Part shown: positions 20,489 through 28,862 of the stretch, one piece after another
Layout: each line of letters starts with the position of its first letter
How positions within the stretch are numbered: position 1 is the first letter of the stretch
NCBI GenBank assembly: GCA_012729535.1
Contig: JAAYCY010000049.1
Span: forward strand, 1 to 64,000
Reading direction: 5' to 3'
DNA length: 64,000 bases
DNA from: Methanomicrobiales archaeon
GTDB lineage: Archaea > Halobacteriota > Methanomicrobia > Methanomicrobiales > Methanospirillaceae
Notes under the pieces: generated by a model
The model's database searches: none
Told to the model about the DNA's origin: nothing
What the model saw: only the letters and a program-made list of their open reading frames with translations
Position numbers and translations under genes: made by a program

Positions 20489-20546
20489 AATGGATAGTTA
20501 TGTATCTGGTGCATAAAAGAGAAACGGACAAAAGGGAAAATCCCTT

Positions 20547-21068
20547 TTATTCTTTACGGCTGAGCAGGAAAACAACAAGTCCAGCTAAAACCGGGGCAAA
20601 AAAGAGTGGTGACTGCGTAGCGAAAGGTGCAGGTGTATCTGGCTCTGTCGGGACATCAGCAATGGTTCCGCTCTGGGATGGAACGACCGATGCATCAACA
20701 CTGCCTTCTTTTCCCGGGATAAATGAAAGGTCAAGGCGTTGGGATTCACCTGCAAAGAGTTTAACTTTTTCAACAGATTGCATATCCTCTATCCAGAAAG
20801 TGATGTATTCACCGATCTGTTCTTCTGCACCATTTACAACCAGACGGCGGTCAAATGTTTCAGGTCCGCCATAGGTTCCAGGTTCAGATGTGGTTACATT
20901 ACCAACCTCAACTCCGTTAATTTTCGCAAGGATTACCACACCTGCATCAGCAGGGGAACCATTTACTGTTGCATTTCCATAGAATTCGTAAGGCAGCGGT
21001 GGAATTGCATTAACACCGATTACCAGTGCTGCTACTAACAGGAGGCAGGCTCCAACTTTATTGAACAT
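20547..21068 (-). CDS. Exported, C-terminally membrane-anchored protein
   Basis: 173 residues. There is a signal peptide (about 1-21), a beta-sandwich-like body (FYGNATVNGSPADAGVVI) recurring in Methanomicrobiales surface proteins, a Pro/Ser/Thr-rich stretch, and a C-terminal hydrophobic helix ending in SRKE. A clear ribosome site (GGAG, about 9 nt before the ATG) sets the start. Contains N-glycosylation sequons. It is downstream of the cohesin/dockerin pair on the same strand, possibly their membrane anchor or an unrelated surface protein. Function unknown. Confidence 0.8.
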   Translation of the reverse strand: MFNKVGACLLLVAALVIGVNAIPPLPYEFYGNATVNGSPADAGVVILAKINGVEVGNVTTSEPGTYGGPETFDRRLVVNGAEEQIGEYITFWIEDMQSVEKVKLFAGESQRLDLSFIPGKEGSVDASVVPSQSGTIADVPTEPDTPAPFATQSPLFFAPVLAGLVVFLLSRKE

Positions 21069-21131: not shown

Positions 21132-22151
21132 TTAATAACCCGGTGACATGGTTTCCGGTGAATTCATATAGATCCAGAAGGCCTGACAGGGGTCAAGCAT
21201 TATCTGCGCATTTGAATTTCCCCTGATTCCTGCATCCCGATATTGTTGATTACTGCTGTCAAACGGGATCACATATGTCCATGATGCAAGTCCTGAAAGC
21301 GCAGATTCAGCAGACTTAGAGCTGGTCCCGGTTATACCAGCAAGGTTCCATCCTGCGTTCAGTGTTTTTGCCCCGGCCAAAAGACTGCTCCCTGACAGGG
21401 GAATACCAACAGGAGTGGTTGAAAAAATCCAGTATCCGGTCATAGGCTTTAAGACATCATCTTTTCCAATGGTTATCCATCCGGCTGTACTGTCATAAGT
21501 CAGGATTGAGTGACCTGCACTCTGGACATTTTTGAATATTTCAGCAGTGTTGGATCCAGGTGTAAGCTGAACCGGGATATTCACAAGGTTCCATCCAGGT
21601 AGCAGGTTTACCGTTAGTTCTCCAAAAGGAGCTGTTGTTGGAGCCGGGGTATGAGTGATCACCGGAGTCTGGGTAGGTACCGGTGTTTGTCCGGGAACCG
21701 ATATTGTTCCGGGTTTTAATACGGTAGTGACAGCATTTCCTGCATCATCATCAAGCTGGACTGTGCTCATGGTGATTTGTGCACTTCCAGCACCGACTGC
21801 CTGAAGGTTCAGGGTTGCAAGGGTGATACCACCTGCTCCCGCTTCTACTCCGCTGTTCAAATCAATAGCGCTAAGAAGATATGATCCTCCTTCTCCTGCA
21901 GTTGCATCAGAGAGCGCTGCCCATGATGGAAAGGTTGCTCCCATTACTGTCACAACGGCCTGATTATCTGATGCTACCGTCATCCGGTATCCTGACAATC
22001 CGTTTGGCAGGGTGTCTATGGTAATATCAGAAGTTCCTGAAGTTCCCGCAGCGAGAGTGACTGGTCCGATTGAAATTACTTCTGAAAGGACACTTGGTAT
22101 GATACATCCGGATAACAGGAGTATCATCAGTATCGTCTGAAAAAAATTCAT
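21132..22151 (-). CDS. Exported protein with cohesin-like domain
   Basis: 339 residues. After a signal peptide (1-23), residues 25-150 look like a cohesin/CBM-type beta-sandwich: ISIGPVTLAAGTSGTSDITI opening, LSGYRMTVASDNQAV, LATLNLQAVGAGSAQITM and the VQLDDDAGNAV end strand. A Pro/Thr linker (153-174) leads to a C-terminal domain with repeated GWNLVNIP, MTGYWIF, GWNLAGITG and AFWIYM motifs, also seen in archaeal and bacterial surface proteins. The start overlaps the stop of the dockerin gene by 4 nt. Cohesin binds dockerin in known systems, so a partner relation is likely but inferred. Confidence 0.75.
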   Translation of the reverse strand: MNFFQTILMILLLSGCIIPSVLSEVISIGPVTLAAGTSGTSDITIDTLPNGLSGYRMTVASDNQAVVTVMGATFPSWAALSDATAGEGGSYLLSAIDLNSGVEAGAGGITLATLNLQAVGAGSAQITMSTVQLDDDAGNAVTTVLKPGTISVPGQTPVPTQTPVITHTPAPTTAPFGELTVNLLPGWNLVNIPVQLTPGSNTAEIFKNVQSAGHSILTYDSTAGWITIGKDDVLKPMTGYWIFSTTPVGIPLSGSSLLAGAKTLNAGWNLAGITGTSSKSAESALSGLASWTYVIPFDSSNQQYRDAGIRGNSNAQIMLDPCQAFWIYMNSPETMSPGY

Positions 22152-23692
22152 GGTTGTATCTCCGCGAAAAGTGCCTGAACATCGCTTAAATCCAGACCTC
22201 CGTTCTCATTAAAGTCAAATGCGGACTGGAAATCCTGCTTTGAGATCCAGTCAAAATACTGGAAAAATACCGTGGGATCCTGAAGATCCATCTTTCCATT
22301 GCCATTCAGGTCTTCATATTTCCCGTCCCCGTCCGGGTCTGTTGGCACTGGTCCGTCACCGCCTAACGGACCTATTGACAGCACGTTAAAAGGAGTTTTA
22401 TCCTCATTTCCCTGCACTTCAAGAACCCAGAGATCACCGCTGGTGTGATTACCGGAAAGATCTCCATCTGATGATGCAGTCATACCGGTGATCATGAGAG
22501 TGCCAGTGTCTGTCTTCCCGACCCATGATCCCCGGTCTACTGATGACCCGCCAATAAGCCGGTGCCAGAGCAGGGTACCATTTTCGTCAACTTCCCCGAT
22601 TACCAGGTCTGCTTCACCATGGTTTCCGGAAAAATCACCATCAACCGAATAACTATCTCCTACAAAGTAAGCCCCTCCTCCGGCAGCCGGCTCCAGTTTC
22701 CAGACATTATCGCTGAAACTTCCGCCAAAGGATTTCTCCCAGATGAGGTTTCCTTCAGGATCGAGGCGCAAAAGCCAGATATCTCCTGCTCCATGGTTGT
22801 TGCTGACATCTCCGTCTGATGATGCTGTTACTGCTGCAACCATCAGGTCGCCTGAAGTAAGTTCAATAACCGAGTGACCCCAGTCAAGAGACGAGCCCCC
22901 ATAAGAATAGTCCCAGAGAGGAGTTCCATTAAGGTCTGTTTTCAGAACCCAGATATCACTGCTGGTTGTGCCTGGAGATGTTGCATTATCTGTTGAATTG
23001 GTATTTCCACATGCAACAAGTGAACCATCACTGGTCGTGATTATACTGGTTCCACTATCACGCCCATCGCTTCCATATGCACGTTGCCAGATAATATTAC
23101 CCTTTGAATCAAGCCTAAGCATCCATAAATCACCGGTTCTGGAGGACATTGAGTACCCACAGACAATGATGTGTCCGTCAGGAAGAACAACCAGATCTGA
23201 TCCTTCATCGGTGTTGGTCTCTCCGAGCGCACGTTCCCACCTGATATTCCCATCCGGTCCCAGGTTTACAACCCACATGTCACCATTTCCATGATAATCA
23301 CTGACATCTCCGTTGAATGATCCGGTTGTACCAATCAAAGCAGCTCCACCATCTGGAAGATTGCGGATTGAAAGGGCATAATCAGTTTCATTGCCCCCGA
23401 TTAATTTTTCCCACAGGACTGTGCTGTTTTTATCAAATCTTATGACCCAGACATCACCATTACCCAGATGCCCAAGGTCAATTGAATCATCAGGATATGC
23501 TACTCCACACACCGTCACATTCCCATCCGCTGATGTATCAAGCCCATATCCCCATTCCGGGCCGTCCGGAAGACCGAAAGCTAGGTTTTTGAGGATATCT
23601 CCTGGAACCGCTCCCAAAACGGTTCCGGGAATTAATACCAGCATACATAGAACAAATATAATATGGTACCCTTTCACTACACTCTCCCCCAT
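22148..23692 (-). CDS. Exported seven-bladed beta-propeller protein with C-terminal dockerin
   Basis: 514 residues: signal peptide 11-28, then seven ~50-residue repeats each with a GD(V/L/I)WV(L/I)-type strand and a Trp-containing 'xLWxxxxGG' turn, consistent with a seven-bladed propeller. Residues 447-514 form a type I dockerin with two calcium loops, DLNGNGKMDLQD (461-472) and DFNENGGLDLSD (493-504), having D/N at positions 1, 3, 5 and 12. First gene of a coupled pair with the cohesin-like gene (4-nt overlap). A TATA box 28 nt before the ATG suggests a leaderless mRNA. Confidence 0.88.
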   Translation of the reverse strand: MGESVVKGYHIIFVLCMLVLIPGTVLGAVPGDILKNLAFGLPDGPEWGYGLDTSADGNVTVCGVAYPDDSIDLGHLGNGDVWVIRFDKNSTVLWEKLIGGNETDYALSIRNLPDGGAALIGTTGSFNGDVSDYHGNGDMWVVNLGPDGNIRWERALGETNTDEGSDLVVLPDGHIIVCGYSMSSRTGDLWMLRLDSKGNIIWQRAYGSDGRDSGTSIITTSDGSLVACGNTNSTDNATSPGTTSSDIWVLKTDLNGTPLWDYSYGGSSLDWGHSVIELTSGDLMVAAVTASSDGDVSNNHGAGDIWLLRLDPEGNLIWEKSFGGSFSDNVWKLEPAAGGGAYFVGDSYSVDGDFSGNHGEADLVIGEVDENGTLLWHRLIGGSSVDRGSWVGKTDTGTLMITGMTASSDGDLSGNHTSGDLWVLEVQGNEDKTPFNVLSIGPLGGDGPVPTDPDGDGKYEDLNGNGKMDLQDPTVFFQYFDWISKQDFQSAFDFNENGGLDLSDVQALFAEIQP

Positions 23693-23715: not shown

Positions 23716-23747
23716 AATATAAAGGTTCTTCATTACCGGATATCCGG
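23716..23747 (-). promoter_or_regulatory. Promoter of the dockerin/cohesin pair with adjacent palindrome
   Basis: The minus strand has CTTTATATT (23716-23724) about 28 nt before the ATG at 23692, so the transcript is probably leaderless. Twelve nt farther upstream is a perfect 12-nt palindrome CCGGATATCCGG (23736-23747), a candidate regulator site. Confidence 0.5.
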
Positions 23748-23783: not shown

Positions 23784-24548
23784 TTATGCCTGGGCAGTTG
23801 AATTTAATGTTTCATTATGTGAAGCTGGTTCATCCGGAACTGCGTTCGTCTCATCAGGGGAGGCTTCTTTCTCTTCTGCATCATTGTCCAGGAATATTCC
23901 TGAACCAATGAACCAGGATCCATCAACTGAGTTGACATATACCATCTTCTTCATGACTTTTCCCTGGTTAAGGATATTAGACGCAGAGAATTCTACAAAA
24001 CCCTCGCCATTCTTTGCTGCATCAATCATCATCTGGACATAACGTGTCCCTTCAGAATCGGAAAACCCGATCTGGTTAGTTCCAACAGATGCAAGGTCCA
24101 TTGGATTTGCTAATACCTTTCCTTCCATATCATATGCAAAAACTGGCATGGCAGGATCTGCATATGGCCCCATGCGATCATTAAATGCAGAAATTGCTGC
24201 ATCCTTTCCTGCTTTGAGGGCTATCATACGGGTATCTTTTACAAACGCTGCAAGTTCGTTTCTTATCTTTTCAGCATTAAAAATTTCAGGTTCACTGACA
24301 GCAGATTCTGATGTTTCATGTACCTCCGTTTCATTAATAATCTCTTCTGATTCTGATACAATTTCTGTCAGATTATTGGTGGTTTCGTTGAATAAATCGA
24401 TAGTTTCCGATAAATTTACTGGAACCTGCTCTACAGTATCAATGATACCGGTCTCATTTTCCACACTATCAGTTGCCATACATGAACCGATAATATAGAG
24501 AAGTACGAAAAAGATAGATACAATTCTAAAATGTGCTTTCATGCCCAT
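23784..24548 (-). CDS. Exported single-Cache-domain protein
   Basis: 254 residues, with a signal peptide (about 1-25), an acidic Glu/Asn-rich spacer with several N-x-S/T sequons (30-85), then an sCache_2-type domain (about 88-215: FAYDMEGKVLANPMDLASVG, QMMIDAAKNGEGFVEF, YVNSVDGSWFIGSGIF). Cache domains bind small organic ligands outside the cell. There is no transmembrane or signalling domain after it, so it is a free or surface-bound binding protein. The C-terminus is acidic. It is divergent from the TPR membrane protein. Confidence 0.8.
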   Translation of the reverse strand: MGMKAHFRIVSIFFVLLYIIGSCMATDSVENETGIIDTVEQVPVNLSETIDLFNETTNNLTEIVSESEEIINETEVHETSESAVSEPEIFNAEKIRNELAAFVKDTRMIALKAGKDAAISAFNDRMGPYADPAMPVFAYDMEGKVLANPMDLASVGTNQIGFSDSEGTRYVQMMIDAAKNGEGFVEFSASNILNQGKVMKKMVYVNSVDGSWFIGSGIFLDNDAEEKEASPDETNAVPDEPASHNETLNSTAQA

Positions 24549-26333: not shown

Positions 26334-26732
26334 TCACCTGATTGGAGCAAGAGATGATGGCTCTTCCATGATAATTATCGGAATTGTAAGGTTTCTATCC
26401 CTATATCCCTGGGCAGAGGCCATAATCTGTAATTTATACATGTTTTCAGGTTCTGCAAGTGAAATAGGAATGATGGTCTGATATGATCCTGCACCTGAAA
26501 AGATTTTCTTATCCATACCCTGGAAAGTAAAGAATAGAGAAGCATTGACAGGTTCATTATCGCTCGTCCGTACCATTCCATGAACCCGGATAACATCTCC
26601 TGGTGCATAATACCCCTTATCAGTTTTAACTGAAACTGAGAGGATATTGCTTTCATTTTCTGCAATTGAGGACTGGACAATTATTCCGGTTACCATAACC
26701 AGAAGGATGAGTATTACCTTTCTTTTTCTCAT
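26334..26732 (-). CDS. Exported beta-sandwich protein, unknown function
   Basis: 132 residues with a signal peptide (about 1-25). The body VKTDKGYYAPGDVIRVHGMV and NASLFFTFQG resembles the MG2/bacterial Ig-like sandwich that occurs in surface proteins. It follows the M13 peptidase gene by 9 nt on the same strand, so the two are probably co-transcribed. No catalytic motif seen. Confidence 0.7.
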   Translation of the reverse strand: MRKRKVILILLVMVTGIIVQSSIAENESNILSVSVKTDKGYYAPGDVIRVHGMVRTSDNEPVNASLFFTFQGMDKKIFSGAGSYQTIIPISLAEPENMYKLQIMASAQGYRDRNLTIPIIIMEEPSSLAPIR

Positions 26733-26741
26733 GAATCTAAT

Positions 26742-28862
26742 TTACCACAATTGTGCACGTTCACTCTCATTCAGGTAGAGGTTGTCTCCAGGATTAATTT
26801 CAGGGAATGCCTGGTAAAATCCTTCAAGGTGATATGGCACGGTATTTATCCTGAACTTGTTCCAGGGATGTTCCTCTGTTCCGGTAATATTACGCAGGTT
26901 GTCATCCGTAATATTTCCCCGCATTGCCTGGGCAAAAGCAATAAAAAAACGTTGGCGGTCTGTAAGGCCATCAAAACGGGGAATATCCAGACTGTCCTGC
27001 TTTGGCCTGGACTTCATATATGCTTCATAAGCCAAGGTTACTCCTCCAAGATCTGCTGATGTTTCAATCAGGGTCTGCGTTCCATTCAGGGTGAGATTTG
27101 GTAATATTTCTGTAGTATTTACCTGGACAATCAGTGGCCATGCAGCATAGAAATAATTGTTTGCATCTTCATTTGTCCACCAGTTCTCCTTTTTTCCGTC
27201 TGGATTATACTGCTGACCGCCGATGTCAATCATATGGATGAGTTCATGACCATATACCCATCCGAATGCACCATAATTCCATGCATCGTCTGCACCAGGA
27301 TCAAAGAAAGGAGGGTTTAAAAAACCGGCAGGAGCTATGATTCGGTTATGGATAAGGTCGTAATGGGCTTCAACTCCATGGGGAGATACATACCAAACAT
27401 CCGGATCTGAAGGAGCTCCTGATAGTTGCATACTCCCATTGGTGAAATATTCTGTCAGTGCAAGCATATTTTGCAGGTATGAACGATCGGTTAAGGTTAA
27501 ATTTCTATATTCCCCCCATTCTTCCGGGTATCCTGCCTGTTCCTTGAGATTATCCATCTTTAAAAGGGCAGTCTTTTTTGTCTCATCGCTCATCCAGGAG
27601 AGGTTTGTAACTCTTTCACGCATTACCTCGCGGATATTGCCTATTATTTCCTCAACTTTTGCCTTGTCTGATGCACTGAAGTATTTATCCACATACAAAT
27701 GGGCTATGGGATTTCCCAGGTAAAGATTCATTATGTCAAAAATCCGATCCTTCTGGGATGTTATCTCTTTTTTAGATAACTTTTCATCATAAAACCGGTA
27801 ATACCGGTCCTGCATAGCAGGAGTTGCAAATGGTGCAGCAAACTGCAAAACCCGATACGTGAGGAATATTTTGATGTCGTCAACTGGTTCGGTTGAAATC
27901 ACCCTTCCAACTTCCTCGATATACTGTGGATTTGTGATGTAGATTTCTTTAAGGTCTGGTCTACCCGAATGTGAAAAGAGTGCCTCCCAGTTTATACCCG
28001 GAAATAATGCGTTTAAGTCCTTAGTTTGGAATGTCCCTGCATCCAGGTAAACATGGGAGGTATTAGAGATTGTACTGATATTCATCTCTCCTCTTGCAAG
28101 ACGTGTCTCTATTCGGAATATGGTGTCTGCTGCCTGGGTAGCATGGACAGAGTCAAAGCCATGGTCTATGAACATCTCAGTTATGTACTGTTTCATTTCA
28201 TCCTGGACTTCTCTTGTCTTATCTATCTCGATGACATAATAGGGGGGAAACCTGATAGTAAAATCTCCGGTTTCAACAGTTGCAATCAGTTCTTTCCTTT
28301 TTTCAGGATTTTCATCAATATATAGGATAAAAAAGGGATCAAGGCCTTGTGCAGTGAGATTAGAGGCTACCTGGCGGATTTCTGACCGGTCATTTGCCTG
28401 GTTTATCATATCAAATGCATGGTGTAATGGCTGAAGGCCTGTCTCTTCATTTGCCTTATCATTAAGTGCAGCACGGTAAAAAGATCCCAGAAGCTGGCGG
28501 GGAGAGCCATTGGTGGCGTGATTTTCGCTTGCAGCATCTTCAACCAGTATCCTGACCCGGTTATCTACATCCTCTTTGACCTCTTCAAATGCTGTATAAA
28601 AGGTATTTCCATCAGGGACCCGGTGGTCCTCTATCCAGCGGTCATTTGCATAAGAGAAAAAATCATCACCAGGATCGATTGAAAGGTTCATACCCTGGGG
28701 AGTTATGGGAGAAACGGTGTCTGCACTCGCGACTGCGAATAGGATGAGTACAGATAGTATCAGAAATAAACCTGTGTTGGTAACCTGAAAATTTCTGCAC
28801 AGTTTTTCTCTTAACCTGGAGAAATGATGAAGGGTTAAGGGTGCAATAGTAGTAATATTCAT
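26742..28862 (-). CDS. M13 family zinc metallopeptidase (neprilysin/PepO-like)
   Basis: 706 residues. A hydrophobic segment at 31-48 suggests export or anchoring. The zinc site is H539-E-L-I-H543, with the third ligand in ETSAD (E600, D604), in the M13 context GWVYGHELIHMID and QQYNPDGKKENWWT. NAFAQ-type and C-terminal HPWNKFRINTVP/FYQAF blocks also match the family. M13 enzymes cleave peptides on the N-terminal side of hydrophobic residues. Rather common in bacteria and eukaryotes, scattered in archaea. It is probably extracellular, near other surface proteins, and followed by the small Ig-like gene. Confidence 0.93.
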   Translation of the reverse strand: MNITTIAPLTLHHFSRLREKLCRNFQVTNTGLFLILSVLILFAVASADTVSPITPQGMNLSIDPGDDFFSYANDRWIEDHRVPDGNTFYTAFEEVKEDVDNRVRILVEDAASENHATNGSPRQLLGSFYRAALNDKANEETGLQPLHHAFDMINQANDRSEIRQVASNLTAQGLDPFFILYIDENPEKRKELIATVETGDFTIRFPPYYVIEIDKTREVQDEMKQYITEMFIDHGFDSVHATQAADTIFRIETRLARGEMNISTISNTSHVYLDAGTFQTKDLNALFPGINWEALFSHSGRPDLKEIYITNPQYIEEVGRVISTEPVDDIKIFLTYRVLQFAAPFATPAMQDRYYRFYDEKLSKKEITSQKDRIFDIMNLYLGNPIAHLYVDKYFSASDKAKVEEIIGNIREVMRERVTNLSWMSDETKKTALLKMDNLKEQAGYPEEWGEYRNLTLTDRSYLQNMLALTEYFTNGSMQLSGAPSDPDVWYVSPHGVEAHYDLIHNRIIAPAGFLNPPFFDPGADDAWNYGAFGWVYGHELIHMIDIGGQQYNPDGKKENWWTNEDANNYFYAAWPLIVQVNTTEILPNLTLNGTQTLIETSADLGGVTLAYEAYMKSRPKQDSLDIPRFDGLTDRQRFFIAFAQAMRGNITDDNLRNITGTEEHPWNKFRINTVPYHLEGFYQAFPEINPGDNLYLNESERAQLW

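Follow-up and report, generated by a model that had tools for sequence, protein, structure and literature searches.

Two overlapping genes of a Methanospirillum genome are likely to encode a cognate, non-cellulosomal dockerin-cohesin pair which tethers a beta-propeller protein to the cell envelope. We found them in the window, by which we mean the whole stretch of 64,000 nucleotides that was analyzed; the closest relatives at the locus were M. stamsii and M. hungatei. We propose that both gene products would be exported and that the C-terminal dockerin of the gene 1 product, folded round two calcium ions, would plug into the N-terminal cohesin of the gene 2 product. Dockerin and cohesin would form a strong non-covalent bond, which would display the propeller on the envelope; the propeller probably serves in adhesion or ligand binding. 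The overlapping start would couple translation of the two partners. The gene 2 product would be held on the surface by its C-terminal module (CTD), possibly via the product of gene 3, which would be anchored by a transmembrane (TM) segment. Physical binding, its calcium dependence and stoichiometry, the anchor and the ligand of the propeller are what we infer here.

To our knowledge, the partners and roles of cohesins and dockerins outside cellulosomes have stayed mostly unknown since the Archaeoglobus fulgidus pair, and they are a puzzle. What is new here is a divergent cohesin family which eludes Pfam and has a recurrent junction of a dockerin gene followed by a cohesin gene. A second junction, in which a CTD gene is followed by the gene of a membrane protein, is possibly new as well and would extend the pair to a three-protein chain to the membrane. 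Since the cohesin family adjoins dockerin genes genus after genus, it provides a ready list of predicted partners. The results suggest that Methanomicrobiales may attach secreted propellers and proteases to the envelope via plug-and-socket contacts, and orthogonal cohesin-dockerin pairs would be useful as binding tools.

Table 1. Features of the propeller-dockerin/cohesin locus and of two further clusters in the same genome. Coordinates are those of the window unless a locus is named.
Feature	Coordinates	Strand	Basis or remark
Gene 1, propeller-dockerin protein, 514 aa	22148..23692	(-)	N-terminal hydrophobic signal
Seven-bladed beta-propeller, SBBP/delta-60 type, residues about 28-431	22400..23611	(-)	
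C-terminal dockerin, residues 443-513	22154..22366	(-)	two conserved loops, sub-cut-off Pfam Dockerin_1
Dockerin calcium loop 1, D461-D472, DLNGNGKMDLQD	22277..22312	(-)	
Dockerin calcium loop 2, D493-D504, DFNENGGLDLSD	22181..22216	(-)	
4-nt overlap (ATGA) between the gene 1 stop and the gene 2 start	22148..22151	(-)	
Gene 2, cohesin protein, 339 aa	21132..22151	(-)	N-terminal hydrophobic signal
Cohesin domain, residues about 22-153	21693..22088	(-)	VIA-align fold match, hhalign
CTD, an unnamed module at the C-terminus with a duplicated GWN...YW repeat, residues about 179-335	21147..21617	(-)	
Gene 3, 173 aa: signal, unnamed domain, C-terminal hydrophobic tail	20547..21068	(-)	
Likely C-terminal TM segment of gene 3, LFFAPVLAGLVVFLL	20565..20621	(-)	sequence reading; ends SRKE
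Terminator-like hairpin, 3' end of gene 3	20528..20550	(-)	consensus match only
Archaeal TATA-like element 5' of gene 1, TTTATATT	23716..23723	(-)	by eye; putative
Extra dockerin-then-cohesin cluster	L064 6053-13335	(-)	G000:C77
Extra dockerin-then-cohesin cluster	L065 7320-9632	(-)	G000:C57

An earlier note on this DNA, made from the sequence alone, had placed two overlapping open reading frames here, and both their positions and the length of the overlap proved to be exact. Gene 3 is a further member of the cluster. Hydropathy analysis revealed signal-like hydrophobic N-termini in the products of all three genes, and the products of genes 1 and 2 are predicted to be secreted. Rfam gave no match at the locus, and matches to bacterial-type promoters there were no better than in shuffled sequence. 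A search for related loci with the gene 2 cohesin protein found no locus; the same search with the propeller alignment found Methanospirillum loci. The three genes kept their order in every Methanospirillum locus that was long enough, and the overlap of genes 1 and 2 was present in all Methanospirillum loci examined. A sister genus (G017) kept the order, with a short gap in place of the overlap. Since order and overlap were conserved, we regard the arrangement as more than chance.

The gene 1 product had been described as a seven-bladed propeller bearing a dockerin, and the structure model agreed with this. In the AlphaFold2 model the propeller consisted of 28 strands (seven blades of four strands each), and its top structure match in the PDB was the CylK propeller (Z = 44.6, 372 residues aligned). 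CylK was also matched by phmmer (E = 2.8e-21), and NCBIfam delta-60 and LipL53-type models gave matches under the cut-off. The dockerin carried two duplicated F-hand calcium loops, as type I-like dockerins do. Both loops lay exactly where they had been read before, and the key residues of the two 12-residue loops were invariant or nearly so in gene 1 orthologues. An additional DPDGDG motif (residues 452-457) was located ahead of loop 1. The score against Pfam PF00404 (Dockerin_1) was 15.7 bits, under the gathering cut-off of 22.9, and a paralogue in the same genome (C60) cleared the Pfam dockerin cut-off with 29.5. The profile of orthologue dockerins (A6) matched solved dockerins weakly, and the dockerin region of the model was of low confidence (pLDDT about 52-63).

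The N-terminal domain of the gene 2 product, which had been called cohesin-like, was confirmed as a cohesin by its predicted jelly-roll fold and by profile-profile comparison. VIA-align matched the model of this domain (residues about 22-155) to cohesins throughout the top PDB matches listed, with Z = 16.4 for the Acetivibrio cohesin 5nrm and Z = 16.0 for the A. fulgidus cohesin 2xdh. AlphaFold2 worked here from a shallow alignment (7 sequences), and of its five models only one, the best, reached confidence, with a mean pLDDT of 69.9 compared with 50.7-55.4 for the others; the fold match was strong despite shallow alignments. The profile evidence is independent of this model. We compared the cohesin-domain profile (A5) by hhalign with 20 archaeal cohesins recognised by Pfam and obtained a probability of 97.4% (E = 1.4e-11, 122 columns), with reversed and column-shuffled controls at or below 0.7%.

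Standard models hardly recognised this family. Pfam PF00963 (Cohesin) had no match in the gene 2 product or anywhere in the source genome; searches of the gene 2 product with Pfam, NCBIfam and PHROGs gave no match, and no cohesin was retrieved when the cohesin domain was searched against PDB sequences by phmmer and by profile. The gene 2 orthologue of M. hungatei JF-1 just passed the Pfam Cohesin cut-off (24.6 bits, cut-off 24.1). In genome G003, which we take to be that of M. hungatei JF-1, the single Pfam Cohesin match was sub-threshold in the genome search and was the gene 2 orthologue. Among the 61 related genomes searched, PF00963 found cohesins in 13 and profile A5 in 41.

Sequence identity between the gene 2 domain and solved cohesins was 10-20%. 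Such a distance would fit a domain that has the cohesin fold and serves as a plain beta-sandwich for sugars or other envelope proteins, in an operon which co-expresses surface proteins that do not touch. A TMEM132 study (PMC6030884) describes cohesin domains outside cohesin-dockerin systems, and some cohesin genes stand without a neighbouring dockerin gene. The profile kinship to recognised archaeal cohesins argues against this reading, and so do the A. fulgidus precedent, the co-occurrence of the cohesin and dockerin profiles, and the same-strand dockerin junctions found in many genera; we hold it to be highly unlikely.

The co-occurrence was assessed with profiles A5 and A6 in the same 61 genomes. 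Both were present in 38 genomes and neither in 18; 3 genomes had a cohesin alone and 2 a weak dockerin alone (Fisher p = 1.7e-10, or 1.8e-8 after removal of Methanospirillum, kinship ignored in both). In Methanomicrobiales, at least 64 of the best 150 cohesin matches had one of the best 150 dockerin matches at most 3 kb away, all 64 on the same strand, where about 1.7 such neighbours would be expected by chance. The dockerin ended at most 7 residues from the C-terminus in 67 of the 68 domains in sampled regions. A dockerin gene stood directly upstream of 44 of the 85 N-terminal-cohesin genes in these regions, in 29 genomes; some of the 85 are redundant or lie at contig ends.

Dockerin-like EF-hand pairs are generally known from proteins without known partners, and the gene 1 dockerin might in principle be a calcium-stabilised C-terminal cap or a stability tag that plugs into nothing. 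We give this hardly any credence, as the dockerin is strictly C-terminal and placed directly ahead of cohesin genes. A dockerin that plugs into the neighbouring cohesin was what the earlier note had envisaged, and this predicted pairing is strongly supported by linkage across many genera, by domain co-occurrence and by the matching A. fulgidus pair.

All five cohesin matches in the source genome fell in three dockerin-cohesin clusters. The first is the pair of genes 1 and 2. The second consists of a subtilase-PKD-dockerin protein followed by a cohesin-only protein. In the third, two cohesin-PKD-PEGA proteins come after a 1553-aa SBBP/PKD protein that carries both a cohesin and a dockerin. The genome had six dockerin proteins: two of propeller type, two subtilases, one NosD-type helix and one unknown. 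Partners may be shared, because three of these (a subtilase, the NosD-like helix and the unknown one) had no adjacent cohesin. Cohesins would then bind dockerins promiscuously, and the neighbouring propeller would be one of several cargoes besides the two subtilases, the NosD-like beta-helix, the SBBP/PKD giant and a 474-aa protein. The imbalance in a genome of Methanomicrobiales that is presumably Methanosphaerula palustris (G014; 42 dockerins versus 6 cohesin matches) would fit such sharing, and about half of the N-terminal-cohesin genes were without a dockerin gene directly upstream. One-to-one gene adjacency recurs, however, and weak cognate co-divergence was observed: in 24 pairs the distance matrices of cognate dockerins and cohesins correlated with r = 0.53, compared with a mean of 0.39 after re-pairing within genomes (p of about 0.02). 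This signal is suggestive only, as operon inheritance can mimic it. We consider general sharing unlikely and prefer a cognate pair of genes 1 and 2.

The closest known counterpart of this cognate pair is in A. fulgidus. At the ORF2375/ORF2376 locus of G159, which we take to be the A. fulgidus genome, a PD40-repeat/cohesin/dockerin protein is followed by a cohesin/PGF-CTERM protein. In both organisms a gene for a C-terminal dockerin is followed by an adjacent gene for an N-terminal cohesin, and a propeller-type repeat (PD40 in ORF2375), not a glycosidase, lies ahead of the dockerin. A dockerin on a propeller is therefore not new, because ORF2375 already has a propeller-type repeat in one protein with a cohesin and a dockerin. 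The two systems differ in that ORF2375 carries a cohesin of its own, its propeller belongs to another family than that of gene 1, and the A. fulgidus cohesin is readily detected by Pfam. The cohesin partner there is membrane-anchored via PGF-CTERM, whereas gene 2 has the CTD instead. In vitro, the ORF2375 dockerin binds the ORF2376 cohesin in the presence of 2 mM CaCl2 (PMC9705933). Given this binding and the match in architecture, the pair in the window most likely works alike and belongs to the non-cellulosomal archaeal kind.

A non-cellulosomal extracellular complex, as proposed in the earlier note, was the best reading of the genome, in which we found no glycosidase among the six dockerin proteins, no scaffoldin and no protein with two cohesin domains. 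A cellulosome was rejected for lack of a glycosidase domain and of a scaffoldin. The cohesin and dockerin folds are shared with the clostridial cellulosome; unlike it, the source-genome proteins examined had no glycosidase, multi-cohesin scaffoldin or cellulose-binding module. Cohesin and dockerin proteins of ANME are likewise archaeal, non-cellulosomal and extracellular, but they are many more and include scaffoldin-like proteins that carry as many as five cohesins (PMC9012536), compared with one cohesin per protein in the source genome. For M. hungatei JF-1, of the same genus, Table 2 of an InterPro survey gives 1 cohesin and 9 dockerins (PMC5244752); that part of the survey offers domain counts, without gene pairing, further cohesins or the third gene. 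The S-layer and sheath of Methanospirillum were the subject of recent detailed studies (PMC11641113, PMC6242892), and dockerins are absent from the main text of the M. hungatei envelope papers.

We further looked at how the gene 2 product might be held at the surface. It had neither PGF-CTERM nor a TM tail, and a lipobox (LSGC) was rejected as it was not conserved. No Pfam or NCBIfam model matched the CTD. Copies of the CTD were numerous across Methanomicrobiales, with up to about 24 per related genome, in secreted proteins where it followed PKD, subtilase and cohesin domains. In 27 of the 28 relatives sampled (L019-L046), 2-12 aa separated its end from the stop. Because it sits at the extreme C-terminus, the CTD resembles a module for sorting or anchoring, and we treat it as a candidate for one at the surface. 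Together with the TM-tailed neighbour gene 3, it suggests a surface anchor for the gene 2 product.

Relatives of the N-terminal domain of gene 3 were common in Methanomicrobiales. Of 67 relatives examined, 25 were at most 500 nt from a listed CTD match, and in all 25 the two were on one strand with the gene 3 domain directly downstream, 33-108 nt apart. About half of the 25 pairs were orthologues of the operon in the window and the others were other loci. By analogy with the dockerin-to-cohesin junction, a CTD gene followed by a gene with the gene 3 domain may be a second plug-socket junction. We tentatively put forward, as a possible if somewhat doubtful extension, a surface daisy chain of three proteins with two successive contacts of a C-terminal plug with an N-terminal socket, in which gene order would equal assembly order. 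The first contact would join the propeller-dockerin protein to the cohesin-CTD protein, and the second the CTD to the N-terminal domain of gene 3, whose TM segment would be the membrane anchor. If true, Methanomicrobiales would possess another docking pair, so far undescribed, in the CTD and the gene 3 domain.

Some further observations were made on the surroundings and on related genomes. Directly upstream of gene 1 lies a gene for a secreted protein with a single Cache-like domain and no signalling part (23784-24548, minus strand), which is kept beside gene 1 in several relatives. A secreted, archaeal M13 (neprilysin-type) metallopeptidase (26742-28862, minus strand) is also kept at the locus, and the next gene after it encodes a small MG2/arrestin-like protein (26334-26732). 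Expansions of dockerins relative to cohesin matches, as in G014, were seen in G016 (45 versus 4) and G030 (23 versus 3) too. In another family of Methanomicrobiales (G059), a 1127-aa protein (L136 3100-6483, minus strand) had at least two cohesins of the gene 2 type and another one detected by Pfam, an arrangement which is scaffoldin-like.
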